Part shown: in pieces, positions 26,856-59,543 of the stretch | Position numbering within the stretch: the first letter of the stretch is position 1 | Layout: each line of letters opens with the position of its first letter | DNA from: Hirudinaria manillensis | Taxonomy: Eukaryota > Annelida > Clitellata > Hirudinida > Hirudinidae | DNA length: 64,000 nucleotides | NCBI GenBank assembly: GCA_034509925.1 | Contig: CM067526.1 | Location: 10,645,629 to 10,709,628, forward strand | Direction: 5' to 3' | Made by a program: the position numbers and the translations under genes | The notes under the pieces: generated by a model | Seen by the model: the letters and a program-made list of their open reading frames with translations, nothing else | Told to the model about the DNA's origin: nothing | Databases searched by the model: none

Positions 26856-26916
26856 TAGAGTTAAAGGGTATCCAAAAGTAACTAAAGTAGAAGCTTGTTT
26901 AGTTGAAAAGTGAACG

Positions 26917-34716: not shown

Positions 34717-37547
34717 CTATGAATACTTGCTGGCAATATGTTTCAATAGCTTCCTCATCCCAATTAAGTCATCTTCATTTATCACTCCAAGTTTAATTTT
34801 TTCATCGCTTATCTATTTAATTCAAGAAAATTAATTAATGTAGACAAATTAAAATCAATGTATTATTTTAAAAAATCCACTTACTTCCTCTATACCACAT
34901 TCATTCATTTCACGTTTTAGAGGTTTTTTCGAATATATGAGAAGACTGGTTAGTATTTTTCTGCTTAAGCTTTCGTTTAAATTGTTTTTGATGAAATCCC
35001 ACAAAATACGTGCCACACGTGGTCGTAAGATCTAAAAATTTATCGATAATTATTAAGTGTTTCTTAAAGTTCATACCAGTTTTAAAACTTTTATGGGAAA
35101 GACATCTAACGATGAGATGAAGAGGAAAGTCACAGGTGCACTCTGACTGAAAATACGTTGTAATTCATCAGAACAACATTCAGATGAAAATTATTAAATT
35201 ATTAAATTCTTACACAATCCAAATCTTCGGAACCGTACTCGCTGAAGCCGATACTTAATAACTTCCTGGTACAGATGTTTAATGTTATCATTAGAATTTT
35301 TTAAACTAACAATACTTATATATTTTTAATCTTTAAACTATTTAAATTAAAATTTAAATTAATCGATATAAACCTATCTTTTTAACTTACTTAACAAAAT
35401 CTTTTGTACAATGATCACAATCTAGATATCCCAAAATCATGCTGTCAATGTGTAATATTGTATTATAACACAATTGCTTTATTAATTATTCGCTGAAAAT
35501 AATCCATAATTGACATACTAATATTGAAATCTGTGACGTGATGAAGATTCCAACAAGCACTGGAAATATTTTAAATCATATTATTATTGCTCTCTAATTA
35601 AAAGTCGTCAATGCATAATTAAATTATTTATAGGTAATGTTCATAATTTAGCCTAGATCCAACATCTTACTGTTTATTTTTTTATAATTAGATGAGATAT
35701 ATAAAATATTATGTTGTCTCATCCGTTCCAATTGATTATCTTACATTTTCAAGCCTCGGCATTTGTTGAGCGGGTAATAGATTCAAGAGATTGTAAGCGT
35801 CTAAGATAAAACCTATTTCCGTTACTACGTTGCGAACATAAGACTCAAACGTTGGCAGCCACGAATCTCCATTACTGGAATAAATCTATAAAAAAATAAA
35901 ACAATTAACATTGAATATGATACTTCATAGTATCATAAAAATTTGTTTGCAATCGTGGCACCTTGAAAAATGGATGCCCGCGAGCCCACGATATAATGAA
36001 TATGTTTTCTAACCTCACCAATAGACGATTTCACTTCGTTCAATTCGTTCCGAGTTGGCCAAAACAATGGCACACCATAATCCCAAAAAATTGCCCCGAA
36101 TCTTTTCCACTTTCTGCACTTCATAATTTTGTTTCTGCATTCATTCCTTCATTTAATAAAAAAAAAAAAAAAAACAAAAATTGAAAGAAACGTAGTAAAT
36201 CAATAAAATGATGAATATGTTTACGTCATTAATCGCTGGAATGATATGTCACAGTTGTCTAATTTGGACATCTTGGAGAGCACAGTTGGCAAATTGAGTT
36301 GTAAATCTTCGCTTATGGTCCCATCGTTTGGCATCAAATCGGATATGTCTAACGTTCTAAAAACACGACCACATGGTAATTAATTAAGTCAGTTTAAATT
36401 TATAATTAATCAATTATGTTTTACTTCAATTGATTCATGGAACTCAAAATGTCAAGGAATAACTCGTTGTAATTTGCCGTTACACAATAGAGTGACAAAA
36501 CTCTAAGTTTTCTGAGACTAGTTAAAGACTTAAGTGTAGAATCGGTGATGGAGTCATTTTCTATCTTGACCTCTTCCAAGGTGTTAGAAAATATAGAAAA
36601 ATCTATGTTTAATAGAATTGTTTCCTGGCGAGGAATGTCATAATCAGATCCAAGTCTTCTTAAAAATAATTTCTTGAGTCTCGGGAATGGAGCGTTTAAA
36701 ACGCTTTCAAAATTTCTAAAATTCCAATATTAAAGGATATCAAAAACGTGATATGAAAAATTTAATTTAAACAGATATATAATATTTATTATTACTACAC
36801 TATTGTTTTTACACCAAATGAACAAACTGTATAAATCGAACCTGCTATTGTAACATATTTCTAAAATTTCAATTGTGGACGCCATTTCATAAAGATACGG
36901 GTTGCACTCTGATAGATAATCTATTCTAACGGAAAGAGATTTAAGGGGGTATGTTGTTTGGTTCAAGTCGTAAAAGACAAAATGTGGAAATACATCATCC
37001 CTCCTTAAAAGGTGAAGGTTAATATTTTGCCAGCCGAGAACATCTCGGTAAGGCAGCACCTCTAGCAAATACCAGCGTTTAATGTACCATCTTATTTCTT
37101 TACTCTTGTAAATGATTCTCTCAAATAAAGAAGTGGGGAGTAACTGTTTTCTGGGACTACGAAAATCTGCAAAAAAAGCAGAAATTAGTCGATGCATACG
37201 TAAACTAGGACATTCTCAAAGTTTAGTTGTTCCATATAAAACTGGAAGGTGAAGATGCGTGCGTGTACTGTTGCTGATTTAAAACGTTTGGCGGGAGGCC
37301 AAAAACTTGAATGAAGCAGTGTCATATATTCATTCATTTATTGACGTGATAAAAAATGCAATAATAATCATAAATGTCGCAAATAATTATTATACGAAAG
37401 CTTCTATCTGCATCGAATTAAATTCTAATCCCCAATCTACTTATTACAAAACAAACCTTTTAATCTGTCACAAAAGATTTCCTTAAAGTTGATGACAATG
37501 TGTTCTAACAAGCAATTTTGCATAGTTTTAACTTTGCTCACGTCCAT
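34717..37547 (-). CDS. Leucine-rich-repeat, ZYG-11/ZER-1-like CUL2 substrate receptor, copy 0
   Basis: Twelve exons (transcript order): 37547-37457, 37166-36842, 36715-36425, 36356-36225, 36134-36014, 35885-35745, 35559-35519, 35441-35391, 35305-35216, 35146-35077, 35031-34885, 34812-34717 (TAG). They join in frame to 531 residues. Residues 1-50 (NCLLEHIVINF, then LLPTSLFERII) resemble the elongin BC/CUL2 box of ZYG-11-type receptors, although the BC-box consensus is imperfect. LRR-like segments follow (YPLKSLSV, FPRLKKLFLRR, LRKLRVLSLY, QLKTLDISD). A linker FWPTRNELNEVKSSIG precedes a helical, armadillo-like part (VARILWDFIKNN, SRKILTSLLIY). ZYG-11/ZER-1 proteins present substrates to CUL2 ubiquitin ligases. 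At 531 residues it is shorter than the roughly 700-780 of typical members. Exon 9 needs the donor GATT/GTGTAAG to keep frame. The Met at 37197 is intronic. Family assignment is tentative; the exon model is stronger. Confidence 0.68.
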
Positions 37548-38375
37548 TATCTTTTATTTTCCTCAAAATTTTCTAAAATTCAAAGTCTGGTTTCTATTAG
37601 TGCATTATTTTCAACAACTTTAAATCGATGTTATTTAAAATTTTACGAATAATAAATTTTCAAATATTTACATTACTGTTATTGTTCAATGGTTCTTACT
37701 CCGATATTGATTTAATTTAATTTCTATTTAATTAAACCTTGATTCCTTAAATCTGTTTGTTTTAGGAAGATTAAATAAGCTTAGTTATGAATGACCTTCT
37801 AGGATGATGTCGAATGACATTCAGAAGTATCGCCCTGGTCAGGCGGAAAATTCGCAGGGAATCGTTCTTAATGTTGTGGATCTCCGCAGTAATCGATGAA
37901 TCGCTCTAGGAAGAATCTTTGACGAATCTCTCACCGACAAGAGGGTGAAGGGCGCCATATTTCAACAAACCATCAAGTGACAGCAAGCGATCGAGGCGGC
38001 ACTACTGCTTAGGAGGTTCAAGGTGTGGTTACACCAGTTCGTGCTATGATTGATTCCAATTTACAAAACTTCAGCAAACTTATATGTCATTGCCATGGCT
38101 TCTGGTTTCTATTTTATCAGATTTTATATAGAAGTTGCTATAGAAGTGAGTGTTAGGGTGAAAATATTTTTAAGGCTCGAATACATTGTCGCGGAATAAT
38201 TAAGTTTTACCACGAACCAATTTGGTATTTCGTGCATATCGGAAGAATATATATACATATTTGCATGAATTTGGTTTAATAAACTGCTTATTAATAATTT
38301 CTGTCGTTTTAAATTTTGTAAAAAGTATTATTTGCAAATGTTATTTTAAGAGTAACTTGCGATTTGCTTTTTCAG
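37548..38375. other. Inter-unit spacer between ZYG-11-like copy 0 and the next antistasin fragment
   Basis: Holds the promoter side of the minus-strand gene and a GC-richer block at about 37825-38045 (also at about 45540-45770 and 53800-54020) of unknown origin. Then come a stretch like intron 1 of gene C (CCATGGCTTCTGGTTTCTAT near 38093) and one like its intron 3 (from about 38158). Exons 2 and 3 of gene C are missing between these. Confidence 0.55.
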
Positions 38376-38808
38376 TTTTAAATTGTCCTGAAGAAACATG
38401 CACTAACGATTGTTCAGTTTCTGGCTTCTTGTTCGATAATAACAATTGCAATACCTGTCTCTGCAACAATCCGTGTGCTGAAGTAACGATCGGGCCATTT
38501 TATTTGTTATGGTTAGTAATTAACAATGTCGAACGCTTACTAATTTTAAAGCGTATTTCAGAGATGTAGTTGATTTAACAAATAGACTGACCAGTCAGTC
38601 TGCATTAAGACCGTTTTATATCGCAACTATTTAAATATTTTTTGTTTTAAACAACCGACTTTAATAGTTTAATTTTAGCTGTGTTACATATCAGTGTATT
38701 TGCATATATTGTTGTAATTTTCAGCTTCAATGCCCTAACGGATGCGCCATGTGGACTGCCTCGTCCTTCGAAGAACCAAACTATGAATGCAAAAAAGATG
38801 AAAACTAA
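38376..38808 (+). pseudogene. Antistasin-like exons 4-5 only, unit 1
   Basis: Exon 4 38376-38482 and exon 5 38725-38808 have the same lengths and splice sites as gene C and an intact frame (CTNDCSVSGFLFDNNNC). No signal-peptide exon, exon 2 or exon 3 is present upstream; the preceding DNA joins gene C intron 1-like to intron 3-like sequence. An alternative upstream ORF with a good donor (GAA/GTGAGT near 38148) does not match the phase of exon 4. It is most likely a 5'-truncated duplicate. Confidence 0.8.
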
Positions 38809-39465
38809 AGCATTCATAATATTTTGAAATATTTTCACGAATTACGAATAACATATTAAATATAATTGCCTGATTATTACATTAATAAAAGTTTAATTAA
38901 GTTCTGGCAATGCCTGCTCAGGTTAACATTTTCGTAACAAATGATGATAAATTCAACGGAATTTAAACCGCAATTATTTAAGATATATAAAAAATTAAAT
39001 AAAAATAACTTCAAATCTCAGAGTGCAGCCATCTTTGTACCGAATAAAACATATGGCAAAAAATCGATTAATGTTCATTTAAACTCGAAAAAATATTGTA
39101 ATTGTGCTTATGTGTCATACTTATTACATAAAGGGCTGGCAAACATTTTTTCAATTAAACCTTTTCAGCTCCTTTCAACATTAGGCTGGGATGGAACGTT
39201 AGAATTTACAATGATTTAATCGCAATTTATTTCAGCGCTTATGTGCAGATTTCATGACAATCCATACAGCCCTCTAAAGCTTCTGAAATTTTCCTGGCTA
39301 ATTCAGGATATGATTCGAGCTGCTATATTATAAAAAGTCTTTAAGGATTGCCCACTCAATATGCCTCCTATTTCGGGTAGAAATTTTTTGATCACAGAAA
39401 TGGATTGTTGGTTAGTAAAAAAGTAAATAAACTTTAATAGGATCAACAAATCTCAAGATTGAAAA

Positions 39466-42055
39466 TATTGTATCGTGCCATCGGAGGATAACTAGTCGAG
39501 AACTACGGTTTCGGTAATCTTATCAGCTTATCACAAGATCAGGAAATGAGCTTCATCCGTGTTCATCATGGATGATCTTCGAGAAGTATTTTTAGAATAC
39601 GCTATCGGAGTGCTGATGGAACAACAGCTCCCATTCCAAGAAAAATTACTCCTTCATGCACAGAAAGGTCTCTAGCACGACTGTTGAAGGCATGCATCAG
39701 TGATCCAGTTCGAAAGTCTGGCCATCTCCCTGAATTCACATTGTATTTCAGGTACAGGCAACTTCGAAGCAATAACTCTGGATAATGCATCGGCTTGTCC
39801 AAAGCGGCTCGCCTTTCTATACTCAATTTTGAAGTCGTAACTAAGTAGGGTAAGCTCTCATCTTTGCAACCGATTCGCTGAATGAGCGCAAACGGCTGTC
39901 TTCGATCCAGCGATTTAAAGCAGGGGTTTGCGTTTCGTCAACGGTAAGAGGCGTCGTTCATATACATGTAGGTATCAATGGAATTTCCTAACACCGAAAA
40001 CCAATGCGAGAGCTTCTCTTTCAATCTGCCCGTAGTTTTGTTCTGCTGTTGTCAGGCTTCTTCCAGCATGTGCTATGGCCTTTTCCGTGTCGTTCGGAAA
40101 TTGGTGCGAGATCACAGCACCTAATCCATACTTACGTACATCAGCAGTAACCACGACGTCGATTTCAGGTCTGAAATGCGTGACGATCAGATCTGTCTGT
40201 AGCAGTTTGTTGAAAACCACCTGATGCTCATCAGTCCACAAAAATTTTTCTTTCTTCTCCGGGTCATCCAGAAGTCCTCTCATGGATCGCATCTCTGGAA
40301 CAAAAGAAGAGTAAATATTAATCATGCCCAAGAAGTATTTTAATTGCTTCTTGTCCTTGGGCGACGGCATTTTGGCAGTCGCATGTATTTTCTCTGGATC
40401 TGGTCGACGTCCATCCTTGCAAATCATATTTCCCAGGAGTTTGATCTCTTTCTTCTCCAACGAACACTTCTCCATTCGAACGCGGAATCCACATTCTGCG
40501 ATCCTCTTCAAAAAAGCATGGATTGTGCTCCTCCAGTGATGTAGCAGTTACGATGATGTCATCCAGGTAAGCTGCACAATTTCATTTTCATTTCATTTAT
40601 TCGAGACGAACGAAGGGACTAGGCCTCTGACACGTTCCGAAAAACAAAAAAACGAGCAAATAAAACATAAACAATCTTTCAATCCTGGGAGCATGCAGTC
40701 CATAGCCTCTTGAAAAATGCCGGGTGCGCACTTGACTCCTGTCAGGGTAGTGTCTGGTACTGGAATAGTCCCCTGTGTGTGTTGACAGTTACTAATTCTT
40801 TGAATCTTTATTGACTTCCATCTGCAGATACGCACCTACCAATTCAATTTGAGTGAACTATGCGCCCTGGTTCAGGTGAGAGAAGATTTCTTCAGGGATC
40901 GGCAGTGGATGTCTGTGTGTCTCAAATGAATCATTCAGGCCTGTCTTTATGTCGGCGCAGTTCCATTCTTCTTGTGCATTATAACTATAAAATATTATGT
41001 GCAGCCTAATAACTGTAACCTACTTTCTTCAAGAATCCTGCGTGCACGAGACGATCCAGTTCATCATCCACGGCTTTCTCCATAACGAAGGGAATCTTCC
41101 TTGGCCTGCAGAAGATTGGGCAGCTTCCTTCCTTCACCTTGAGCTCTGCCTTCTTTTTGGTGCATCAGCCCAATGAAGACGTCCTCCTTGAAGACGTCAG
41201 GATATTCATCCAACAATTGCTTTGCCAGATCCCTTACCTCAACTAGTTTGCGTTCCACTTGACAGATAGCATTGAAGGCTTTTGGAAATGGTGGTCACTA
41301 ATCGCACGACGCTCGGAACCTCTTCGATGATTTCGCTAGCATGTTCACATTCTCAGAGTAGTTTATGAAGTCGAAATCTTAAATTCTACACTTGAATTGC
41401 ATTGCAACGCCGTCGGAAGAGACTAACCTACTCTCCAAACAGTGACTCTAGGATCTCCCTGATTTTATTGTACTTCAGCTCTTTTGTTGTCTGCGGTCGG
41501 ATCTAGTCCCTGAGGAGATTGTACATCGCCGTGGCGAGTTTCGTGACGAAAATTCTAGCTCTGTCTTCATCGGACAGTCGTGATCCGTGAGGAGTCACTG
41601 CGTTTTCAAATCGTTCTATCCAAGATGTGAATGTGCCACCACATTCGGCGTCAAACTTGAACATTTGGGTCTTGCTGATCAATTCCGTGATCAGTTCTTC
41701 CCCCTGGCGATTTGTGGAGTTAGATACATTTACCTTCTCCAACAGTTGCACCGACACGTCATATCTCCTCCTAGACTCCTCATCTCGAAGACGATTTTCT
41801 TCATCGCGGCAGCGATTTTCTTACAGAAACATCATCATCAACGAAATGAGTTTATCCTCTGATCCCATTCTCGTCGCCAAATATATTGTATCTTGCAATC
41901 GGAGGATAATTAGTCTAGAAATATGATTTCGGTAACTTTATTAGCTAATTGCCAGATCACGAAAAGAGCACGAGCGGAATAGCCACAATGCCATTTATAG
42001 CGGTCTTACATAATAGAATGCCGCGCTCCATTCCAATTGGTGCTCCACCACAACA
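39466..42055 (-). mobile_element. Decayed Ty3/gypsy element, unit 1
   Basis: 5' LTR 41884-42055; the 3' LTR is truncated (39466-39551), because a deletion joins it to the integrase linker region and removes integrase and the PPT. Pieces, reading leftward: gag 41757-41503, pre-RT 41258-41064, RT start 40835-about 40673 (GVKCAPGIFQEAMDCMLPGL), a YLDD catalytic box around 40555-40566, and RT end plus RNase H 40511-39975 (TADVRKYGLGAVISHQ). About 95 bp (40578-40672) inserted in the RT splits the domain. The protease region present in unit 0 is deleted here. GAAAA target duplications remain. Confidence 0.85.
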
Positions 42056-42434
42056 GAAAATCGTTTCTGCTGTAAACAAAATACCATCCAACAGCCACTC
42101 GTCTACTGATTGCGAATCTAATACTTTCAGCAGAATACCATAAAGTATTTCATCTGAAATCAGCTCTCCATTCCTAATAAAGTTTTCACAAACAATTCCT
42201 ACTTCTAAGCATAATAAAACTATTTATTAAACAAAATTTTTTGAGAAATACAACTGACATGATATAGAATGTAAAGTCAAAGCAAAAGGTAACAGAACAC
42301 GTAAACGGTCTTGTATTGGTTATGTAAAACGCCTTTATTCAGCTTAAACTCACCGAACGCCATTCCGACATTTACTTAACATATGCCTAGTCAAGTGGAA
42401 GTATTTCAAAATGATTATCGGTGGATTTAATCGG

Positions 42435-45247
42435 CTATGAATACTTGCTGGCAATATGTTTCAATAGCTTCCTCATCCCAATTAAGTCATCTTCATTTAT
42501 CACTCCAAGTTTAATTTTTTCATCGCTTATCTATTTAATTCAAGAAAATTAATTAATGTAGACAAATTAAAATGAATGTATTATTTTAAAAAAATCCACT
42601 TACTTCCTCTATACCACATTCATTCATTTCACGTTTTAGAGGTTTTTTCGAATATATGAGAAGACTGGTTAGTATTTTTCTGCTTAAGCTTTCGTTTAAA
42701 TTGTTTTTGATGAAATCCCACAAAATACGTGCCACACGTGGTCGTAAGATCTAAAAATTTATCGATAATTACTAAGTGTTTCTTAAAGTTCATACCAGTT
42801 TTAAAACTTTTATGGGAAAGACATCTAACGATGAGATGAAGAGGAAAGTCACAGGTGCACTCTGACTGAAAATAAGTTGTAATTCATCAGAACAACATTC
42901 AGGCGAAAATTATTAAATTATTAAATTCTTACACAATCCAAATCTTCGGAACCGTACTCGCTGAAGCCGATACTTAATAACTTCCTGGTACAGATGTTTA
43001 ATGTTATCATTAGAATTTTTTAAACTAACAATACTTAGATATTTTTAATCTTTAAACTATTTAAATTAAAATTTAAATTAATCGATATAAACCTATCTTT
43101 TTAACTTACTTAACAAAATCTTTTGTACAATGATCACAATCTAGATATCCCAAAATCATGCTGTCAATGTGTAATATTGTATTATAACACAATTGCTTTA
43201 TTAATTATTCGCTGAAAATAATCCATAATTGACATACTTATATTGAAATCTGTGACGTGATGAAGATTCCAACAAGCACTGGAAATATTTTAAATCATAT
43301 TATTATTGCTCTCTAATTAAAAGTCGTCAATGCATAATTAAATTATTTATAGGTAATGTTCATAATTTAGCCTAGATCCAACATCTTACTGTTTATTTTT
43401 TTATAATTAGATGAGATATATAAAATATTATGTTGTCTCATCCGTTCCAATTGATTATCTTACATTTTCAAGCCTCGGCATTTGTTGAGCGGGTAATAGA
43501 TTCGAGAGATTGCAAGCGTCTAAGATAAAACCTATTTCCGTTACTACGTTGCGAACATAAGACTCAAACGTTGGCAGCCACGAATCTCCATTACTGGAAT
43601 AAATCTATAAAAAAATAAAACAATTAACATTGAATATGATACTTCATAGTATCATAAAAATTTGTTTGCAATCGTGGCACCTTGAAAAATGGATGCCCGC
43701 GAGCCCACGATATAATGAATATGTTTTCTAACCTCACCAATAGACGATTTCACTTCGTTCAATTCGTTCCGAGTTGGCCAAAACAATGGCACACCATAAT
43801 CCCAAAAAATTGCCCCGAATCTTTTCCACTTTCTGCACTTCATAATTTTGTTTCTGCATTCATTCCTTCATTTAATAAAAAAAAAAACAAAAACAAAAAT
43901 TGAAAGAAACGTAGTAAATCAATAAAATGATGAATATGTTTACGTCATTAATCGCTGGAATGATATGTCACAGTTGTCTAATTTGGACATCTTGGAGAGC
44001 ACAGTTGGCAAATTGAGTTGTAAATCTTCGCTTATGGTCCCATCGTTTGGCATCAAATCGGATATGTCTAACGTTCTAAAAACACGACCACATGGTAATT
44101 AATTAAGTCAGTTTAAATTTATAATTAATCAATTATGTTTTACTTCAATTGATTCATGGAACTCAAAATGTCAAGGAATAACTCGTTGTAATTTGCCGTT
44201 ACACAATAGAGTGACAAAACTCTAAGTTTTGTGAGACTAGTTAAAGACTTAAGTGTAGAATCAGTGATGGAGTCATTTTCTATCTTGACCTCTTCCAAGG
44301 TGTTAGAAAATATAGAAAAATCTACGTTTAATGGAAATCTTGCCGGGCCATCAGATCTAAGTCTTCTTAAAAATAATTTCTTGAGTCTCGGGAATGGAGC
44401 GTTTAAAACGCTTTCAAAATTTCTAAAATTCCAATATTAAAGGATATCAAAAACGTGATATGAAAAATTTAATTTAAACAGATATATAATATTTATTATT
44501 ACTACACTATTTTTGACACCAAATGAACAAACTGTATAAATCGAACCTGCTATTGTAACATATTTCTAAAATTTCAATTGTGGACGCCATTTCATAAAGA
44601 TACGGGTTGCACTCTGATAGATAATCTATTCTAACGGAAAGAGATTTAAGGGGGTATGTTGTTTGGTTCAAGTCGTAAAAGACGAAATGTGGAAATACAT
44701 CATCCCTCCTTAAAAGGTGAAGGTTAATATTTTGCCAGCCGAGAACATCTCGGTAAGGCAGCACCTCTAGCAAATACCAGCGTTTAATGTACCATCTTAT
44801 TTCTTTACTCTTGTAAATGATTCTCTCAAATAAAGAAGTGGGGAGTAACTGTTTTCTGGGACTACGAAAATCTGCAAAAAAAGCAGAAATTAGTCGATGC
44901 ATACGTAAACTAGGACACTCTCAAAGTTTAGTTGTGCCATATAAAACTTGGAGGTGAAGATGCGTGCGTGTACTGTTGCTGATTTAAAACGTTTGGCGGG
45001 AGGCCAAAAACTTGAAGGAATGAAGCAGTGTCAAATATTCATTCATTTATTGACGTTATAAAAAATGCAATAATAATCATAAATAATTGTTATACGAAAG
45101 CTTCTATCTGCATCGAATTAAATTCTAATCCCCAATCTACTTATTACAAAACAAACCTTTTAATCTGTCACAAAAGATTTCCTTAAAGTTGATGACAATG
45201 TGTTCTAACAAGCAATTTTGCATAGTTTTAACTTTGCTCACGTCCAT
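42435..45247 (-). CDS. ZYG-11/ZER-1-like LRR protein, copy 1
   Basis: Exons (transcript order): 45247-45157, 44871-44547, 44422-44144, 44075-43944, 43853-43733, 43604-43464, 43278-43238, 43160-43110, 43024-42935, 42865-42796, 42750-42604, 42530-42435 (TAG). All splice sites of copy 0 are preserved. Over 34.2-36.5 kb versus 41.9-44.3 kb the two copies are collinear with a single-base shift, so they are very recent duplicates. The main change is in exon 3, where a loop between LRR segments is replaced and 12 bp shorter, in frame. About 527 residues. Same tentative family assignment and the same non-standard exon 9 donor as copy 0. Confidence 0.66.
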
Positions 45248-46153: not shown

Positions 46154-46586
46154 TTTTAAATTGTCCTGAAGAAACATGCACTAACGATTGTTCAGTTTCT
46201 GGCTTCTTGTTCGATAATAACAATTGCAATACCTGTCTCTGCAACAATCCGTGTGCTGAAGTAATGATCGGGCCATTTTATTTGTTATGCTTAGTAATTA
46301 ACAATGTCGAACGCTTACTAATTTTAAAGCGTATTTCAGAGATGTAGTTGATTTAACAAATAGACTGACCAGTCAGTCTGCATTAAGACCGTTTTATATC
46401 GCAAATATTTAAATATTTTTTGTTTTAAACAACCGACTTTAACAGTTTAATTTTAGCTGTGTTACATATCAGTGTATTTGCATATATTGTTGTAATTTTC
46501 AGCTTCAATGCCCTAACGGATGCGCCATGTGGACTGCATCGTCCTTCGAAGAACCAAACTATGAATGCAAAAAAGATGAAAACTAA
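46154..46586 (+). pseudogene. Antistasin-like exons 4-5 only, unit 2
   Basis: Exon 4 46154-46260, exon 5 46503-46586, frames intact, same splice borders as gene C. Exons 1-3 are absent. Upstream sequence differs from units 1 and 3 (the stretch near 45510-45540 is replaced), which marks a different duplication history. Confidence 0.8.
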
Positions 46587-47242: not shown

Positions 47243-50200
47243 TATTGTATCATGCCATCGGAGGATAACTAGTCGAGAACTACGGTTTCGGTAATCTTAT
47301 TAGCTTATCACAAGATCAGGAAATGAGCGTGAGCGGAATAGCCACAAGGCTATTAATAGCGGCCTAACACAATAGAATGCCGCGTTCCACTCCTATTGGT
47401 GCTTCATTACAACACCTCCCCCCTATCAAAGCTGGTACTTCTTCCTTCGAGGGTCCAGCTCTAATCTTCTGGGTGGTTGGCATTTTCTCAATTGTCGGCC
47501 AATCCAGTTCTATGCAGTTGTTTTCTGACCATGTGAAGATAAACATGTTGTTGTTCTGTAAGCCCATAGGAACTTCTGGATCACATCTTGTATGGCTCCC
47601 TCCCTTCTCGACTTCTGGAAAGTGCTCTTGGAGGTGTTCACAAAGCGTTATGCCTGGCCATTATTTTGCGGATGGTATGGTGGCGAACGGATGTGTTTGA
47701 TACCATGTTGCTCACAAAACCGCTGGAACTCTTGAGGTGCGAACTGCGTCCCATTGTCTGCGTTGTTCTAGGGAATCCATGATGTGCGAATATCCTAATT
47801 AATTCTCTAATTGTACCAGTGGCTGTTGTCGATTACATCTGAACAACCCCAGGCCACTTGGAGAAGGCATCCACGACGATGAGGAACATCATTCCTTCCA
47901 GGGGTCAGGCAAAATCTACGTCGATCCTTTCCCATTCACAGTTTGGTGTTGGGCATGGTAACGGTTCATTTCTTACAGGCATTTTTTCAGCATCCTGACA
48001 AGCGCTGCATCTCTTCACCTGTTCTTCGATATCCCTGTCCATGCCCTGCCAATATATAAGCTTCATCCGTGTTCATCATGGATGATCTTCGTGAAGTATT
48101 TTTAGAATACGCTATCGGAGTGCTGATGGAACAACAGCTCCCATTCCAAGAAAAATTACTCCTTCATGCACAGAAAGGTCTCTAGCACGACTGTTGAAGG
48201 CATGCATCAGTGATCCAGTTCGAAAGTCTGGCCATCTCCCTGAATTCACATTGTATTTCAGGTACAGGCAACTTCGAAGCAATGACTCGGGATAATGCAT
48301 CGGCTTGTTCAAAGCGGCTCGCCTTTCTATACTCAATTTTGAAGTCGTAACTAAGTAGGGTAAGCTCTCATCTTTGCAACCGATTCGCTGAATGAGCGAA
48401 AACTCCTGTCTTCGATCCAGGGATTTAAAGCAGGGGTTTGTGTTTCGTCAACGGTAAGAGGCGTCGTTCATATACATGTAGGTATCAATGGAATTCCTAA
48501 CACCGAAAACCAATGCGAGAGCTTCTTTTTCAATCTGCCCGTAGTTTTGTTCTGTTGTTGTCATGCTTCTTCCAGCATGTGCTATGGTCTTTTCCGTGCC
48601 GTTCGGAAATTGGTGCGAGATCACAGCACCTAATCCATACTCACGTACATCAGCGGTAACCACGACGTCGATTTCAGGTCTGAAATGCGTAACGATCAGA
48701 TCTGACTGTAGCAGTTTGTTGAAAACCACCTGATGCTCATCTGTCCACAAAAATTTTTCTTTCTTCTCCGGGTCATCCAGAAGTCCTCTCATGGATCGCA
48801 TCTCTGGAACAAAAGAAGAGTAAATATTAATCATGCCCAAGAAGTATTTTAATTGCTTCTTGTCCTTGGGCGACGGCATTTTGGCAGTCGCATGTATTTT
48901 CTCTGGATCTGGTCGACGAAGGGACTAGGCCTCTGACACGTTCCGAAAAACAAAAAAAAAGAGCAAATAAAACATAAACAATCTTTCAATCCTGGGAGCA
49001 TGCAGTCCATAGCCTCTTGAAAAATGCCGGGTGCGCACTTGACTCCAGTCAGGGTAGTGTCTGGTACTGGAATAGTCCCCTGTGTGTGTTGACAGTTACT
49101 AATTCTTTGAATCTTTATTGACTTCCATCTGCAGATACGCACCTACCAATTCAATTTGAGTGAACTATGCGCCCTGGTTCAGGTGAGAGAAGATTTCTTC
49201 AGGGATCGGCAGTGGATGTCTGTGTGTCTCAAGTGAATCATTCAGGCCTGTCTTTATGTCGGCGCAGTTCCATTATTCTTATGCATTATAACTATAAAAT
49301 ATTATGTGCAGCCTAATAACTGTAACCTACTTTCTTCAAGAATCCTGCGTGCACGAGACGATCCAGTTCATCCTTGGCCTGCAGAAGATTGGGCAGCTTC
49401 CTTCCTTCACATTGAGCTCTGCCTTCTTTTTGGTGCATCAGCCCAATGAAGACGTCCTCCTTGAAGACGTCAGGATATTCATCCAACAATTGCTTTGCCA
49501 GATCCCTTACCTCAACTAGTTTGCGTTCCACTTGACAGATAGCATTGAAGGCTTTTGGAAATGGTGGTCACTAATCGCACGACGCTCGGAACCTCTTCGA
49601 TGATTTCGCTAGCATGTTCACATTCTCAGAGTAGTTTATGAAGTCGAAATCTAAAAATCTACACTTGAATTGCATTGCAACGCCGTCGGAAGAGACTAAC
49701 CTACTCTCCAAACAGTGACTCTAGGATCTCCCTGATTTTATCGTACTTCAGCTCTTTTGTTGTCTGCGGTCGGATCTAGTCCCTGAGGAGATTGTACATC
49801 GCCGTGTCGAGTTTCGTGACGAAAATTCTAGCTCTGTCTTCATCGGACAGTAGTGATCCGTGAGGAGTCACTGCGTCTTCAAATCGTTCTATCCAAGATG
49901 TGAATGTGCCACCACATTCGGCGTCAAACTTGAACATTTGGGTCTTGCTGATCAATTCCGTGATCAGTTCTTCCCCCTGGCTATTTGTGGAGTTAGATAC
50001 ATTTACCTTCTCCAACAGTTGTACCGACACGTCATATCTCCTCCAAGACTCCTCATCTCAAAGACGATTTTCTTCATCGCGGCAGCGATTTTCTTCCAGA
50101 AACATCGTCATCAACGAAATGAGTTTATCCTCTGATCCCATTCTCGTCGCCAAATATATTGTATCTTGCAATCGGAGGATAATTAGTCTAGAACTATGAT

Positions 50201-50328
50201 TTCGGTAACTTTATTAGCTAATTGCCAGATCACGAAAAGAGCACGAGCGGAATAGCCACAATGCCATTTATAGCGGTCTTACATAATAGAATGCCGCGCT
50301 CCATTCCAATTGGTGCTCCACCACAACA
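47243..50328 (-). mobile_element. Decayed Ty3/gypsy element, unit 2 (both LTRs present)
   Basis: 3' LTR 47243-47414 and 5' LTR 50157-50328, both 172 bp, with GAAAA duplications outside. The polypurine tract (GGGGGGAGG on the minus strand) abuts the 3' LTR at about 47415-47423. Pieces, reading leftward: gag 50030-49776, pre-RT 49531-49313, RT start 49142-about 48985, RT end and RNase H 48879-48448, integrase linker 48336-48112, degraded integrase about 48060-47800. A deletion near 48918-48924 removes the YLDD box. It is the most complete end-to-end copy of this old element but cannot encode a functional polyprotein. Confidence 0.87.
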
Positions 50329-50707
50329 GAAAATCGTTTCTGCTGTAAACAAAATACCATCCAACAGCCACTCGTCTACTGATTGCGCATCTAATACTTT
50401 CAGCAGAATACCATAAAGTATTTCATCTGAAATCAGCTCTCCATTCCTAATAAAGTTTTCACAAACAATTCCTACTTCTAAGCATAATAAAACTATTTAT
50501 TAAACAAAATTTTTTGAGAAATACAACTGACACGATATAGAATGTAAAGTCAAAGCAAAAGGTAACAGAACACGTAAACGGTCTTGTATTGGTTATATGA
50601 AACGCCTTTATTCAGCTTAAACTCACCGAACGCCATTCCGACATTTACTTAACATATGTCTAGTCAAGTGGAAGTATTTCAACTTATTTAATGGCGGATT
50701 TAATCGG

Positions 50708-53521
50708 CTACGAATAGTTGCTGGCAATGTGTTCCAATAGTTTCTTCATAGCAATTAAGGCATCTTCATCTATCACGCCATTTTTCCTTTTTTCATAGCA
50801 GATCTATTTAATTCAAGAAAATTAATTAATGTAGACAAATTAAAATGAATGTATTATTTTTAAAATTCCACTTACTTCCTCTATACCACATTCATTCATT
50901 TCACGATTTAGAAGTTTTTGCGAATATATGAAAAGACTGCTTAGTATTTTTCGGCTTAAGCTTTCGTTTAAATTGTTTTGGATGAAATCCCATAAAATAC
51001 GTGCCACACGTGGTTGTAAGATCTAAAAATTTATCGATAATTATTAAGTGTTTCTTAAAGTTCATACCAGTTTTAAAACTTTTATGGGAAAGACATCTAA
51101 CGATGTGATGAAGAGGAATGCGACCGGGGCTCACTGACTGAAAATACATTGTAAATCATCAGAACAACATTCAGGCGAAAATTATTAAATTATTAAATTC
51201 CTACTGAATTCAAATCTTCGGAACCGTACTTGCTGAAGCCGATACTTAATAACTTCCTGGTACAGATGTTTAATGTTATCATTAGAATTTTTTAAACTAA
51301 TAATATTTAGATATTTTTAATCTTTAAACTATATAAATTAAAATTTAAATTAATCGATATAAACCTATCTTTTTAACTTACATGATAAAATCCCTTGTAC
51401 AATGACCATAATCTAGATATGCCAAAATCATGCTGTCAATGTGTAATATTGTATTATAATACAATTGCTTTATTAATTAATCGTTGTAAATAATCCCTAA
51501 TTGACATACTCATATCTGAAACTGTAACGTGAAAATGATTCCAACAAGCACTGGAAATATTTTAAATCATGTTAATATTGATCTCTAATTAAATGTCGTC
51601 AATGCATTTAAATTATTTTAGGTCATATTCATCGTACTGCTTATTTTTTAATAATTAGATGAGATATATAAAACATTATGTTATCTCATCCGTTCCAATT
51701 TATTATCTTACATTTTCAAGCCTCGGCATTTGTTGAGCGGGTAATAGAAACGAGAGTTTGCGAGCGTCTATTAGAAAACCTATTTCCCGTATTATGTTGC
51801 GAACATAAGACTCAAAAGTTGGCAGCCACGAATCTCCAATCCTACAATAAATCTATAAAAAAAATAAAACAATTAACATTGAATATGATACTTCATAGTA
51901 TCACAAAAATTTGTTTGCAGTCGTGATACCTTGAAAAAAGGATGCCCACGAGCCCACGATACAATGAATATGTTTTCTAACCTCACCAATAGATGATTTC
52001 ACTTCTTTCAATTCGTTCTGAGTTGGCCAAAACAATGGCCCATCATAACGACCATCATACCCAAAAATTGCCCCGAATCTTTTCCACTTTTTGCACTTCA
52101 TAATTTTGTTTCTGCATTCATTCCTTCATTTAATAAAAAAAAAACAAAAATTGAAAGAAACGTAGTAAATCAATAAAATGATGAATATGTTTACGTCATT
52201 AATCGCTGGAATGATATGTCACAGTTGTCTAATTTGGACATCTTGGAGAGCACAGTTGGCAAATTGAGTTGTAATTCTTCGCTTATGGTTCCATCGTTTG
52301 GCAGCAAATCGGATATGTCTAACGTTCTAAAAACACGACCACATGGTAATTAATTAAGTCAGTTTAAATTTATAATTAAGCAATTATGTTTTACTTCAAT
52401 TGATTCATGGAACTCAAAATGTCAAGGAATAACTCGTTGTAATTTGCCGTTACACAATAGAGTGACAAAACTCTAAGTTTTCTGAGACTAGTTAAAGACT
52501 TAAGTGTAAAATCGGCGATGGAGTCATTTTCTATCTTGACCTCTTCCAATGTGTAAGAAAATCTAGAAAAATTTATGTTTAATTGACCATTGAACAGGCG
52601 AGTATATTCTTCATAATATGGAGTTCTTCTTAAAAACAATTTCTTGAGTCTCGGGAATCGAGCGTTTAAAAAGCTTTCAATATTTCTAAAATTCCAATAT
52701 TAAAGGATATCAAAAACGTGATATGAAAAATTTAATTTAAACAGATATATAATATTTATTATTACTACACTATTGTTTTTACACCAAATGAACAAACTGT
52801 ATAAATCGAACCTGCTATTGTAACTTATTTCTAATATTTCAATTGTGGACGCCATTTCATAAAGATACGGCATGCAATCTGATAATTGATGTATTACAAC
52901 GGAAAGAGATTTAAGGGGGTATGTTATTTGGTTCAAGTTGTAAAAGATACAATATGGAAATACATCATCCCTCCTTAAAAGGTGAAGGTTAATATTTTGC
53001 CAGCCGAGAACATCTCGGTAAGGCAGCATTGGTATCAAATACCGCTTTTTAATGTACCATCTTATTTCTTTACTCTTGTAAATGATTCTCTCAAATAAAG
53101 AAGTGGGGAGTAACTGTTTTCTGGGACTACGAAAATCTGCAAAAAAAGCAGAAATTAGTCGATGCATACGTAAACTAGGACACTCTCAAAGTTTAGTTGT
53201 GCCATATAAAACTTGGAGGTGAAGATGCGTGCGTGTACTGTTGCTGATTTAAAACGTTTGGCGGGAGGCCAAAAACTTGAAGGAATGAAGCAGTGTCAAA
53301 TATTCATTCATTTATTGACGTGATAGAAAATGCAATAATAATCATAAATATCGCAAATAATTATTATACAAAAGCTTCTATCTGCATCGAATTAAATTCT
53401 AATCCCCAATCTACTTATTACAAAACAAACCTTTTAATCTGTCACAAAAGATTTCCTTAAAGTTGATGACAATGTGTTCTAACAAGCAATTTTGCATAGT
53501 TTTAACTTTGCTCACGTCCAT
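50708..53521 (-). CDS. ZYG-11/ZER-1-like LRR protein, copy 2 (diverged)
   Basis: Exons (transcript order): 53521-53431, 53136-52812, 52685-52395, 52326-52195, 52111-51982, 51852-51712, 51550-51510, 51432-51382, 51296-51205, 51129-51068, 51022-50876, 50803-50708 (TAG). The frame is open throughout, about 532 residues. It differs from copies 0 and 1 by many replacements in exons 2, 3, 5-10 and 12: for example PMLPYRDVLG, a different exon 3 loop, and three extra codons in exon 5 (FGYDGRYDGPLFWP). Exons 9 and 10 use another donor/acceptor pair (A/GTAGGA and GTGAG/CCCCG), again in frame. Preservation of frame despite divergence argues for a functional gene. Confidence 0.66.
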
Positions 53522-54349
53522 TATCTTTTATTTTCCTCAAAATTTTCTAAAATTCAAAGTCTGGTTTCTATTAGTGCATTATTTTCAACAACTTTAAATC
53601 GATGTTATTTAAAATTTTACGAATAATAAATTTTCAAATATTTACATTACTGTTATTGTTCAATGGTTCTTACTCCGATATTGATTTAATTTAATTTCTA
53701 TTTAATTAAACCTTGATTCCTTAAATCTGTTTGTTTTAGGAAGATTAAATAAGCTTAGTTATGAATGACCTTCTAGGATGATGTCGAATGACATTCAGAA
53801 GTATCGCCCTGGTCAGGCGGAAAATTCGCAGGGAATCGTTCTTAATGTTGTGGATCTCCGCAGTAATCGATGAATCGCTCTAGGAAGAATCTTTGACGAA
53901 TCTCTCACCGACAAGAGGGTGAAGGGCGCCATATTTCAACAAACCATCAAGTGACAGCAAGCGATCGAGGCGGCACTACTGCTTAGGAGGTTCAAGGTGT
54001 GGTTACACCAGTTCGTGCTATGATTGATTCCAATTTACAAAACTTCAGCAAACTTATATGTCATTGCCATGGCTTCTGGTTTCTATTTTATCAGATTTTA
54101 TATAGAAGTTGCTATAGAAGTGAGTGTTAGGGTGAAAATATTTTTAAGGCTCGAATACATTGTCGCGGAATAATTAAGTTTTACCACGAACCAATTTGGT
54201 ATTTCGTGCATATCGGAAGAATATATATACATATTTGCATGAATTTGGTTTAATAAACTGCTTATTAATAATTACTGTCGTTTTAAATTTTGTAAAAAGT
54301 ATTATTTGCAAATGTTATTTTAAGAGTAACTTGTGATTTGCTTTTTCAG

Positions 54350-54782
54350 TTTTAAATTGTCCTGAAGAAATATGCACTAACGATTGTTCAGTTTCTGGCT
54401 TCTTGTTCGATAATAACAATTGCAATACCTGTCTCTGCAACAATCCGTGTGCTGAAGTAATGATCGGGCCATTTTATTTGTTATGGTTAGTAATTAACAA
54501 TGTCGAACGCTTACTAATTTTAAAGCGTATTTCAGAGATGTAGTTGATTTAACAAATAGACTGACCAGTCAGTCTGCATTAAGACCGTTTTATATCGCAA
54601 CTATTTAAATATTTTTTGTTTTAAACAACCGACTTTAATAGTTTAATTTTAGCTGTGTTACATATCAGTGTATTTGCATATATTGTTGTAATTTTCAGCT
54701 TCAATGCCCTAACGGATGCGCCATGTGGACTGCATCGTCCTTCGAAGAACCAAACTATGAATGCAAAAAAGATGAAAACTAA
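54350..54782 (+). pseudogene. Antistasin-like exons 4-5 only, unit 3
   Basis: Exon 4 54350-54456 and exon 5 54699-54782, frames intact, one replacement next to a knot cysteine (EICTND for ETCTND). Exons 1-3 are missing. The fragment and its flanks are exactly 15974 bp from unit 1, with no indel between. Confidence 0.8.
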
Positions 54783-55439
54783 AGCATTCATAATATTTTG
54801 AAATATTTTTACGAATTACGAATAACATATTAAATATAATTGCCTGATTATTATATTAATAAAAGTTTAATTAAATTCTGGCAATACCTGCTCAGGTTAA
54901 CATTTTCGTAACAAATGATGATAAATTCAACGGAATTTAAACCGCATTTATTTAAGATATATAAAATCTTAAATAAAAATATCTTCAAATCTCAGAGTGC
55001 AGCCATCTTTGTACCGAATAAAACATATGGCAAAAAATTGATTAATGTTCATTTAAACTCGAAAAAATATTGTAATTGTGAATATGTGTCATACTTATTA
55101 CATAAAGGGCTGGCAAACATTTTTTCAATTAAACCTTTTCAGCTCCTTTCAACATTAGGCTGGGATGGAACGTTAGAATTTACAATGATTTAATCGCAAT
55201 TTATTTCAGCGCTTATGTGCAGATTTCATGGCAATCCATACAGCCCTCTAAAGCTTCTTGAATTTTCCTGGCTAATTCAGGATATGATTCGAGCTGTTAT
55301 ATTATAAAAAGTCTTTAAGGATTGCCCACTCAATATGCCTCCTATTTCGGGTAGAAATTTTTTGATCACATAAATGGATTGTTGGTTAGTAAAAAAATAA
55401 ATAAACTTTAATAGGATCAACAAATCTCAAGATTGAAAA

Positions 55440-58028
55440 TATTGTATCGTGCCATCGGAGGATAACTAGTCGAGAACTACGGTTTCGGTAATCTTATCAG
55501 CTTATCACAAGATCAGGAAATGAGCTTCATCCGTGTTCATCATGGATGATCTTCGAGAAGTATTTTTAGAATACGCTATCGGAGTGCTGATGGAACAACA
55601 GCTCCCATTCCAAGAAAAATTACTCCTTCATGCACAGAAAGGTCTCTAGCACGACTGTTGAAGGCATGCATCAGTGATCCAGTTCGAAAGTCTGGCCATC
55701 TCCCTGAATTCACATTGTATTTCAGGTACAGGCAACTTCGAAGCAATAACTCTGGATAATGCATCGGCTTGTCCAAAGCGGCTCGCCTTTCTATACTCAA
55801 TTTTGAAGTCGTAACTAAGTAGGGTAAGCTCTCATCTTTGCAACCGATTCGCTGAATGAGCGAAAACGGCTGTCTTCGATCCAGCGATTTAAAGCAGGGG
55901 TTTGCGTTTCGTCAACGGTAAGAGGCGTCGTTCATATACATGTAGGTATCAATGGAATTTCCTAACACCGAAAACCAATGCGAGAGCTTCTCTTTCAATC
56001 TGCCCGTAGTTTTGTTCTGCTGTTGTCAGGCTTCTTCCAGCATGTGCTATGGCCTTTTCCGTGTCGTTCGGAAATTGGTGCGAGATCACAGCACCTAATC
56101 CATACTTACGTACATCAGCAGTAACCACGACGTCGATTTCAGGTCTGAAATGCGTGACGATCAGATCTGTCTGTAGCAGTTTGTTGAAAACCACCTGATG
56201 CTCATCAGTCCACAAAAATTTTTCTTTCTTCTCCGGGTCATCCAGAAGTCCTCTCATGGATCGCATCTCTGGAACAAAAGAAGAGTAAATATTAATCATG
56301 CCCAAGAAGTATTTTAATTGCTTCTTGTCCTTGGGCGACGGCATTTTGGCAGTCGCATGTATTTTCTCTGGATCTGGTCGACGTCCATCCTTGCAAATCA
56401 TATTTCCCAGGAGTTTGATCTCTTTCTTCTCCAACGAACACTTCTCCATTCGAACGCGGAATCCACATTCTGCGATCCTCTTCAAAAAAGCATGGATTGT
56501 GCTCCTCCAGTGATGTAGCAGTTACGATGATGTCATCCAGGTAAGCTGCACAATTTCATTTTCATTTCATTTATTCGAGACGAACGAAGGGACTAGGCCT
56601 CTGACACGTTCCGAAAAACAAAAAAAGAGCAAATAAAACATAAACAATCTTTCAATCCTGGGAGCATGCAGTCCATAGCCTCTTGAAAAATGCCGGGTGC
56701 GCACTTGACTCCTGTCAGGGTAGTGTCTGGTACTGGAATAGTCCCCTGTGTGTGTTGACAGTTACTAATTCTTTGAATCTTTATTGACTTCCATCTGCAG
56801 ATACGCACCTACCAATTCAATTTGAGTGAACTATGCGCCCTGGTTCAGGTGAGAGAAGATTTCTTCAGGGATCGGCAGTGGATGTCTGTGTGTCTCAAAT
56901 GAATCATTCAGGCCTGTCTTTATGTCGGCGCAGTTCCATTCTTCTTGTGCATTATAACTATAAAATATTATGTGCAGCCTAATAACTGTAACCTACTTTC
57001 TTCAAGAATCCTGCGTGCACGAGACGATCCAGTTCATCATCCACGGCTTTCTCCATAACGAAGGGAATCTTCCTTGGCCTGCAGAAGATTGGGCAGCTTC
57101 CTTCCTTCACCTTGAGCTCTGCCTTCTTTTTGGTGCATCAGCCCAATGAAGACGTCCTCCTTGAAGACGTCAGGATATTCATCCAACAATTGCTTTGCCA
57201 GATCCCATACCTCAACTAGTTTGCGTTCCACTTGACAGATAGCATTGAAGGCTTTTGGAAATGGTGGTCACTAATCGCACGACGCTCGGAACCTCTTCGA
57301 TGATTTCGCTAGCATGTTCACATTCTCAGAGTAGCTTATGAAGTCGAAATCTTAAATTCTACACTTGAATTGCATTGCAACGCCGTCGGAAGAGACTAAC
57401 CTACTCTCCAAACAGTGACTCTAGGATCTCCCTGATTTTATCGTACTTCAGCTCTTTTGTTGTCTGCGGTCGGATCTAGTCCCTGAGGAGATTGTACATC
57501 GCCGTGGCGAGTTTCGTGACGAAAATTCTAGCTCTGTCTTCATCGGACAGTCGTGATCCGTGAGGAGTCACTGCGTTTTCAAATCGTTCTATCCAAGATG
57601 TGAATGTGCCACAACATTCGGCGTCAAACTTGAACATTTGGGTCTTGCTGATCAATTCCGTGATTAGTTCTTCCCCCTGGCGATTTGTGGAGTTAGATAC
57701 ATTTACCTTCTCCAACAGTTGCACCGACACGTCATATCTCCTCCTAGACTCCTCATCTCGAAGACGATTTTCTTCATCGCGGCAGCGATTTTCTTACAGA
57801 AACATCGTCATCAACGAAATGAGTTTATCCTCTGATCCCATTCTCGTCGCCAAATATATTGTATCTTGCAATCGGAGGATAATTAGTCTAGAAATATGAT
57901 TTCGGTAACTTTATTAGCTAATTGCCAGATCACGAAAAGAGCACGAGCGGAATAGCCGCAATGCCATTTATAGCGGTCTTACATAATAGAATGCCGCGCT
58001 CCATTCCAATTGGTGCTCCACCACAACA
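55440..58028 (-). mobile_element. Decayed Ty3/gypsy element, unit 3
   Basis: 5' LTR 57857-58028 and a truncated 3' LTR (from 55440), with the same deletion joint as unit 1. RT end/RNase H piece 56485-55949, RT start 56808-about 56640, gag 57730-57476. It carries the same 95-bp-class insertion in the RT as unit 1 and no protease or integrase. Nearly identical to unit 1. Confidence 0.85.
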
Positions 58029-58359
58029 GAAAATCGTTTCTGCTGCAAAAAAAATTCCATCCAACAGCCACTCGTCTACTGATTGCGAATCTAATACTTT
58101 CAGCAGAATACCATAAAGTATTTCATCTGAAATCAGCTCTCCATTCCTAATAAAGTTTTCACAAACAATTCCTACTTCTAAGCATAATAAAACTATTTAT
58201 TAAACAAAATTTTTTGAGAAATACAACTGACATGATATAGAATGTAAAGTCAAAGCAAAAGGTAACAGAACACGTAAACGGTCTTGTATTGGTTATATGA
58301 AACGCCTTTATTCAGCTTAAACTCACTGAACGCCATTCCGACATTTACTTAACATATGC

Positions 58360-59543
58360 CTAGTCAAGTGAAAGTATTTCAAAATGATTATCGGTGGATT
58401 TAATCGGCTTGCTGGCAATATGTTTCAATAGCTTCCTCATCCCAATTAAGTCATCTTCATTTATCACTCCAAGTTTAATTTTTTCATCGCTTATCTATTT
58501 AATTCAAGAAAATTAATTAATGTAGACAAATTAAAATGAATGTATTATTTTAAAAAAATCCACTTACTTCCTCTATACCACATTCATTCATTTCACGTTT
58601 TAGAAGTGTTTGCGAATATATGAAAAGACTGCTTAGTATTTTTCGGCTTAAGCTTTCGTTTAAATTGTTTTTGATGAAATCCCACAAAATACGTGCCACA
58701 CGTGGTCGTAAGATCTAAAAATTTATCGATAATTACTAAGTGTTTCTTAAAGTTCATACCAGTTTTAAAACTTTTATGGGAAAGACATCTAACGATGCGA
58801 TGAAGAGGAAAGCGACCGGGGCTCACTGACTGAAAATACATTGTAAATCATCAGAACAACATTCAGATGAAAATTATTAAATTATTCAATTCTTACACAA
58901 TACAAATCTTCGGAACCGTACTTGCTGAAGCCGATACTTAATAACTTCCTGGTACAGATGTTTAATGTTATCATTAGAATTTTTAAACTGACAATACTTA
59001 TATATTTTTAATCTTTAAACTATTTAAATTAAAATTTAAATTAATCGCTATAAACCTATCTTTTTAACTTACATAACAAAATCCTTTGTACAATGATCAC
59101 AATCTAGATATGGCAAAATCGAGCTGTCAATGTGTAATATTGTATTATAACACAATTGCTTTATTAATTATTCGCTGAAAATAATCCATAATTGACATAC
59201 TTATGTTGAAATCTGTAACGTGATAAAGATTCCAACAAGCACTGGAAATATTTTAAATCATATTAATATTGCTCTCTAATTAATTAATTAGGTAATGTTC
59301 ATCCGTAAGCCGTGATCCAACATCTTACTGTTTATTTTTTAATAATTAGATGAGATATATAAAATATTATGTTGTCTCATCCGTTCCAATTGATTATCTT
59401 ACATTTTCAAGCGTCGGCATTTGTTGAGCGGGTAATAGATACGAGAGTTTGTAAGCGTCTGCTAGAAAACCTATATCCGATACTACGTTGCTAACATAAG
59501 ACTCAAAAGTTGGCAGCCACGAATCTCCATTCCTGCAATAAAT
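58360..59543 (-). pseudogene. ZYG-11/ZER-1-like copy 3, frameshifted and interrupted by a gypsy element
   Basis: Only exons 6-12 are visible: 59543-59403, 59241-59201, 59123-59073, 58988-58897, 58821-58760, 58714-58568, 58494-58360. Exon 9 has lost one base in its T run (five T instead of six near 58979-58984 on the + strand), shifting the frame. In exon 12 a small deletion removes the usual stop, so translation would continue to a TAG at 58360, adding about 16 residues. Upstream, intron 5 is broken by the LTR at 59616. Exons 1-5 may lie beyond the element outside the window. Confidence 0.7.

Follow-up and report, generated by a model that had tools for sequence, protein, structure and literature searches.

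The window analysed here, a stretch of 64,000 nucleotides from the leech Hirudinaria manillensis (C1:10645629-10709628), carries several members of a gene family derived from ZER1, a substrate receptor of cullin-2 RING ubiquitin ligases (CRL2). The family has at least 93 loci in the genome. As judged from their sequences, its members keep the VHL-box region, the leucine-rich repeats (LRRs) and the position of the first armadillo (ARM) subdomain (AD1) of ZER1, and lack the second (AD2) together with its Gly/N-degron pocket. Taken as a whole, we consider it probable that this truncated family encodes CRL2 substrate receptors with fast-changing target faces. The original prediction, made from the letters of the window, placed here a family of ZYG-11/ZER-1-like ubiquitin-ligase receptors hidden in short exons. 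Such a family was found, its source is amended to ZER1 by intron positions, and its copies would be receptors of the kind proposed.

Gene copies and family size

A repeated unit of 7.7-8.3 kb makes up the window from about 34 kb onwards. Four units are present, each with one 12-exon gene on the minus strand, and relics of the unit lie at 25.7-29.0 and 31.3-32.7 kb. Copies c0, c1 and c2 are fully inside the window and c3 is so in part, whereas c4, d0 and d1 lie outside. The model of c0 was built by comparison with other copies and paralogues, then transferred by alignment to c1, c2, c4, d0 and d1. The c0 gene (34717..37547, minus strand) encodes 507 aa in 12 exons, which are, 5' to 3' of the gene, 37457-37547, 36842-37166, 36425-36715, 36225-36356, 36014-36134, 35745-35885, 35519-35559, 35391-35441, 35214-35265, 35111-35146, 34885-35031 and 34717-34812. 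All 11 introns are GT-AG, their phases are 1,2,2,2,0,0,2,2,0,0,0, and the spliced frame has no internal stop. Two variants of the model were discarded. One had an additional exon at 37.2 kb, between exons 1 and 2; the paralogues L009 and L011 have stops there and L039 fuses these two exons. In the other, a later donor for exon 2 (TTTG/GT) creates a stop with exon 3, and paralogues place the donor further upstream.

The second copy, c1 (42435..45247, minus strand; 503 aa, 98% identity to c0), has exons at 45157-45247, 44547-44871, 44144-44422, 43944-44075, 43733-43853, 43464-43604, 43238-43278, 43110-43160, 42933-42984, 42830-42865, 42604-42750 and 42435-42530. The third, c2 (50708..53521, minus strand; 510 aa, 81% identity to c0), is a mosaic with exons at 53431-53521, 52812-53136, 52395-52685, 52195-52326, 51982-52111, 51712-51852, 51510-51550, 51382-51432, 51205-51256, 51102-51137, 50876-51022 and 50708-50803. 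Exons 6-12 of c3 occupy 58408..59543 on the minus strand (59403-59543, 59201-59241, 59073-59123, 58897-58948, 58794-58829, 58568-58714 and 58408-58494). Its exons 1-5 follow at 65095-66617, past the window end. With all 12 exons in order and both parts free of stops, c3 is a full gene and not a fragment, despite its truncated look at 59.5 kb. A fifth copy, c4, lies about 8.3 kb beyond c3, and d0 and d1 lie on the plus strand about 0.13 Mb to the left of c0. Open frames with GT-AG at every intron are found in c0, c1, c2, c4, d0 and d1, and all seven local copies are open across 12 exons. The usual stop codon is absent in c3, c4 and d1, whose frames extend about 15 residues further (in c3, past 58408).

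These models confirm the gene structure that was predicted for the locus. The twelve short minus-strand exons with agreeing phases are borne out by GT-AG in all three complete copies, but the proteins, at 503-510 residues, fall about 20 below the expected length of about 530. The three copies said to be open are free of internal stops, and c3 is a fourth open copy. The predicted span has real borders, 34717 being the end of the c0 stop codon and 59543 the 5' edge of c3 exon 6. The presence of LRRs and a tandem expansion with divergence between copies were likewise correctly foreseen.

The wider family was sought in the whole genome (148.43 Mb, 23 contigs) with a 244-residue piece (exons 2-3 plus some intron frame) and with the fused exon 1-2 of a distant member. 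These queries gave 137 and 94 exon matches, respectively, both counts being lower bounds. Merging matches within 1.5 kb yields at least 93 loci on 11 contigs. Sixty-seven of the 93 have a neighbour within 30 kb. Four are on contig C16, possibly as duplicates of loci on C1. Among the 94 fused-exon matches, 84 are stop-free; several of the ten with a stop straddle the junction of exons 1 and 2, where the translation would run through an intron. Another array of the family lies at C5:2990000-3035500, with matches of two kinds in alternation that repeat every ~8.15 kb and score nearly equally from unit to unit.

A spliced protein-to-DNA aligner, with phases not forced, was run 26 times over 20 stretches, one of which was ZER1 itself. 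A single product has a stop (L039), and some others are short where the locus or the similarity came to an end. L037 (38% identity to c0) and the second gene of L040 (30%) show the same 12 exons and the same 11 phases as c0. Ten introns in the same order are found in L015, L043, L052, L036 and the first gene of L040, and nine in L035 and L051, with one or two missing. Six paralogues at 30-38% identity to c0 (L035, L036, L037, L043 and the second genes of L038 and L040) give stop-free products that reach query residue 500-505 of 507. On these predicted gene models, the family is real and has intact frames.

Relationship to ZER1

One locus with a complete ZER1 gene was found, L050 at C5:11.75 Mb. 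Its hand-spliced protein has 861 aa in 17 exons. The first 764 residues match the Pfam family ZER1-like_2nd (PF22964; E 3e-120), and the best PDB match is human ZER1 (E 2.5e-62), followed by ZYG11B (E 2.1e-45). The first 11 introns of this gene have the phases 1,2,2,2,0,0,2,2,0,0,0, identical to c0 in 11 of 11 cases, and the c0 model had been fixed before the ZER1 gene was inspected. Since L037, the second gene of L040 and the start of ZER1 share its exon and phase structure, the c0 model is more than chance. In a global profile alignment blind to introns, 13 family members against ZER1, ten of the 11 c0 introns could be mapped, with one in a gap. The offsets are -3, 0, 0, 0, 0, 5, 0, 7, 1 and 0 residues, so that six of ten are exact and eight are within 3. 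Exons 6-11 of c0, at the AD1 position, equal those of ZER1 in number and phase. The sequences themselves also align: with hhalign in local mode, 13 members against ZER1 residues 26-620 scored 91.5 (E 1.9e-11), against 20.1 or less for 20 of 20 shuffles of ZER1, and the alignment begins at the N-terminal helices, which are not LRRs. The nearest Pfam family of c0 is LRR_Zer-1 (E 6.7e-5; 23.5 bits, under the curated cut-off of 27), a profile matched by six of ten family members at E <= 0.05. The intron positions thus assign the family, at the level of gene structure and sequence, to descent from a single full-length ZER1 gene.

Several observations weigh against this assignment. The C4 group (L039, L041, L055 and L056) has exons 1-2 fused and different phases downstream. 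The L038 genes deviate at one intron at least (1,2,2,2,0,0,2,0,2 and 1,2,2,0,0,0,2,2,0,0), and the phases of L042 deviate as well, at a low score. The C-terminal part alone scores 13.8 against ZER1, within the range of its 20 shuffles (8.6-18.4). The sequence similarity there is not significant, and the homology of that part therefore rests on gene structure. An exon-wise genome search with LRR_Zer-1 hit one exon only, from a family member (E 0.007), and missed the ZER1 locus, which indicates that such searches overlook things. When a family profile was searched against PDB, the top matches were generic LRR proteins (E 1e-4), with ZYG11B much weaker at E 0.61.

In single-sequence searches, c0 gave no hit at E <= 0.01 among 7165 candidates in the protein database, and the 244-residue piece had no PDB match at E <= 1. 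The single PDB match of c0 alone (E 0.34) was taken as chance.

At the N-terminus, the VHL-box region of c0 (37107..37547, minus strand, with intron 1 inside) aligns with that of the same genome's ZER1. It contains a BC-box-like segment in exon 1 (TMQNCLLEHI; TLTNSCLSFI in ZER1) and a CUL2-box-like segment at the start of exon 2 (LLPTSLFERII; FLPPFLFEEL in ZER1). The BC box consensus is [T/S/P]LxxxCxxxPhi. By eye, its position 1 is Leu in five and Met in 18 of 23 aligned members, and the outer hydrophobic residues are largely retained. At the Cys position, 21 members have Leu and two Val, which counts against the receptor reading. The strict consensus consequently fails in the family, whereas the same genome's ZER1 fits it. 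The Leu-Pro of the CUL2 box is kept in all 23 (by eye). The predicted N-terminal segment is borne out as BC/CUL2-box-like, with a BC box that is degenerate at the Cys position.

At the other end, the last exon of the family is the counterpart of the opening portion of ZER1 exon 12 and ends level with MWNATDESAPNC. The alignment with ZER1 ends at WNATDESAP, and the copies stop just before the WNATDES motif. An exon-by-exon genome search with PF22964 gave five matches, all at the ZER1 locus. In ZYG11B, the Gly/N-degron pocket residues W522 and D526 lie in AD2, according to the available text of PMC13379236. The residues used to test for the pocket were W522, D526, N567 and E570 of ZYG11B. The WNATD of ZER1 can be read as the W522/D526 spot, from an alignment with human ZER1 (WNITDE) and residue spacing, the two numberings not being aligned. 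The armadillo-like tail that had been predicted is therefore retained only as the place of AD1; its sequence is no better than shuffles, and AD2 is absent.

Divergence, proposed function and alternatives

Divergence (K) was compared in 15 pairs of six local copies, with many Fisher tests uncorrected for their number and pairs that are not independent. In 14 of the 15, exons have the higher K and introns the lower. Between c0 and c4, with a dN/dS of 3.6, 64.3 nonsynonymous changes stand against 4.7 synonymous ones (Fisher p 0.005; nonsynonymous divergence, dN, versus intron K, p 0.08). For c0 and c2, one of the pairs proposed for a dN/dS check by the original prediction, exon K is 0.099 and intron K 0.036, and dN is 0.103, above intron K (p 5.6e-10). 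The synonymous divergence (dS) of 0.091 likewise exceeds intron K. This indicates gene conversion of exon tracts besides selection, and the excess is probably in part imported. In keeping with its mosaic structure, c2 has exons 4-7 and introns 4-5 that are nearly d0 (1.7-3.5% different), and its exon 1 equals that of c0. Over the whole gene, the excess is not significant for d0-d1 (p 0.065) or c2-d0 (p 0.17), and the c0-c1 pair (p 0.85) diverged too recently for a decision.

Change is unevenly spread along the protein. Among the seven local copies, 193 of 507 positions are variable and form two blocks, residues 61-180 and 291-440, with shares of 22% (residues 1-60), 53% (61-180), 19% (181-290), 49% (291-440) and 31% (441-507). 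Exon 10 (35111-35146 in c0), of 12 codons, is the most variable, with ten of 12 positions changed over the seven copies; the adjacent intron 10 shows 0-5% difference across the six pairs given. Nonsynonymous changes within the first 60 codons number 0 in c0-c1 and c0-c2 and 1 in c0-c4 and c2-c4. Across 11 distant paralogues, the docking segment is the best conserved, with a mean major-residue share of 0.62 versus 0.36-0.54 elsewhere.

The family proteins are most likely substrate receptors of cullin-2 ubiquitin ligases. As sequence and gene structure show, everything past the start of exon 12, AD2 included, was lost from a single ZER1 gene, and tandem duplication and dispersal followed. In ZYG11B, the VHL box binds elongin C and CUL2, and LRR4-5 also contacts CUL2 (PMC13379236, available text). 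The N-terminal helices of the leech proteins may bind elongin C and CUL2 in the same way, and the quiet middle LRRs may help to seat the protein on CUL2 as the counterpart of the LRR4-5 surface. The variable first LRRs and the first-ARM region would bind a target, which would then be ubiquitinated. A kept docking part beside two quickly changing putative target faces hints that the targets are themselves fast-changing; they might be proteins of parasites or viruses, or of selfish elements. Tentatively, and with more doubt than belief, the family could be a leech intracellular recognition repertoire. In this form, dozens of cullin-2 receptors without the Gly/N-degron pocket, with hypervariable LRR/ARM-like faces diversified by duplication, selection and exon-tract conversion, would tag proteins of parasites, viruses or selfish elements for degradation.

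Some of the divergence data count against the receptor proposal. dN/dS is 0.72-1.52 in 13 of the 15 pairs and reaches 3.3 and 3.6 only in c1-c4 and c0-c4. It is only among the c copies that the docking segment changes little: the first 60 codons hold 6.5 nonsynonymous changes in c0-d0 and c2-d0, 7 in d0-d1 and 13.5 in c0-d1, and the c0-d1 dN there (0.097) is near intron K (0.113). The CUL2 face of the middle LRRs is drawn by analogy.

The copies could instead be translated ZER1 derivatives that are no longer ligase subunits, working unattached as LRR binding proteins or as decoys, a little like ZEEL-1. The available text of PMC12680543 describes ZEEL-1, which serves as antidote in a toxin-antidote pair, as a homologue of ZYG11B. 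The loss of the BC-box Cys in every aligned member would fit such a role, as would the finding that the ZYG-11-like part of ZEEL-1 alone gave no rescue while its transmembrane part did so fully or partly (PMC3144186, available text). This is unlikely given the conservation of the docking segment in distant paralogues, its near constancy among the c copies, though not between c and d, and the invariant Leu-Pro of the CUL2 box. Still less probable is an origin of the LRR-adaptor type unrelated to ZER1 (e.g. F-box-like), with the likeness due to convergence. LRRs are promiscuous, and the PDB matches of the family profile are generic LRR proteins that include the F-box proteins TIR1 (E 0.018) and COI1 (E 0.025). 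The intron phases and positions held in common with ZER1 make convergence highly improbable unless the L050 model is wrong, and the N-terminal helices, which are not LRRs, also align with ZER1.

It is also quite improbable that most of the family are pseudogenes, spread by unequal exchange and too young to have lost their open frames. The dN/dS values of the 13 pairs, the broken retroelement pieces in the repeated units and the nearly equal matches of the C5 array with its ~8.15-kb repeat are what such a history would leave. The c0 frame was also evolved neutrally in silico, by substitution alone and with 2000 runs for each rate. When K was set to 0.036, as in the introns of c0-c2, 5.7% of runs were still stop-free. 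With K at 0.10 the share fell to 0.05%, which disfavours pseudogenes. So do the seven local copies, whose 12 exons are open and whose splice sites are intact, the six paralogues at 30-38% identity that run without a stop almost to the query's end, and the predominance of stop-free matches. The reading as truncated ZER1-derived receptors is thus preferred.

Neighbouring features and known relatives

Mobile elements are interspersed with the gene copies. Intron 5 of c3 holds a young Ty3/gypsy long terminal repeat (LTR) element on the minus strand (59616..64000, continuing to 65074 outside the window), recognised by its LTR pair and the domains of its open reading frame (ORF). The LTRs (59616-59839 and 64851-65074; 224 bp) are 99.6% identical, and the long ORF spans 59848-63987. 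Broken gag, reverse transcriptase and RNase H fragments at 39546..41820 (minus strand; Pfam RT_RNaseH_2 and DUF7083; repeat families D3, D7, D10 and D12) are part of the ~8 kb repeated unit and were duplicated together with the gene. Inside a relic of the unit sits a small LTR element (26539-28266, plus strand; 297-bp LTRs, 99.3% identical), whose ORF at 26917-28008 has a SAP domain and, in a Pfam scan, no reverse-transcriptase match. A 639-aa ORF at 29147-31066 (plus strand) carries the reverse transcriptase domain RVT_1.

Opposite the ZER1-like gene, the repeated unit has an antistasin-like cysteine-rich exon (38384-38464, plus strand; 17.4 bits, Pfam cut-off 21.2), and the two units that follow repeat this stretch near 46.2 and 54.4 kb (repeat family D14). 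An antistasin domain above the cut-off (32.3 bits) lies at 18603-18683 on the minus strand (C1:10664231-10664311), and the genome has 63 antistasin-domain matches at E <= 0.001. Exons of an apparent cyclic-nucleotide/HCN-type channel gene extend over 1534-16129 (plus strand), with Ion_trans_N over its cut-off (59.6 bits) and Ion_trans (23.6; cut-off 25) and cNMP_binding (16.8; cut-off 27.5) below theirs. At 4644-5120, a 119-bp unit forms four head-to-tail copies that are 100% identical, with a CAT/CAC run at the end. The telomeres are TTAGGG.

In the nematode F-box and MATH-BTB expansions, too, ligase receptors have multiplied, with one part conserved for docking and another variable for targets. 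The leech family resembles these in the split between docking and target parts; its adaptor and cullin differ, and the docking fold is unrelated. The nearest relatives are the CRL2 receptors ZER1 and ZYG11B of the Gly/N-degron pathway. With them the family shares the VHL-box region, the LRR domain and the domain order, and with the same genome's ZER1 also the 11 intron phases and most positions; it differs in lacking the AD2 pocket, in having more than 90 loci instead of one and in its fast divergence.

The available text of PMC3144186 reports one or two zyg-11 orthologues in most animals and an expansion in Caenorhabditis, including C. elegans and C. briggsae. The zyg-11-like families there comprise 19-37 genes in each of three species, with a tandem array. 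The suggestion of an 'undescribed system' was thus too strong as to kind. These Caenorhabditis families, ZEEL-1 included, are likewise tandem expansions of the ZYG11/ZER1 family, as far as the available text goes. The leech set differs in its size (at least 93 loci), its phylum and its derivation from ZER1. The ZYG-11-like part of ZEEL-1 has about 700 residues, compared with about 505 for the whole leech protein. ZEEL-1 also has a six-pass transmembrane N-terminus; c0 has none, with only seven residues ahead of the BC-box-like segment. Against this known expansion, the leech set would be a second, larger and independent case, ZER1-derived and shortened. No paper on a ZYG11/ZER1 expansion in a leech or annelid, or on a lineage-specific ZER1 expansion in invertebrates, was found among open-access papers. 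None of the entries listed by broader searches of that literature reports such a family outside nematodes in its title or the opening of its abstract. In the available main text of the leech genome papers PMC10087013 and PMC10671345 the word 'ubiquitin' is absent, as is 'zyg' in that of PMC10087013. The latter paper describes transcriptomes from three leeches that cover stages, tissues and a bloodsucking series.

AT-rich gene families with short exons are easily overlooked. If the copies bind elongin-CUL2, an annelid would have made, independently of Caenorhabditis, a large and diversified set out of a housekeeping N-degron receptor by cutting off its degron domain. Natural truncation would then have separated docking from degron reading in ZER1, and the LRR and AD1 faces would be testable as substrate sites. 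Such a set would point to an unknown conflict in leeches.

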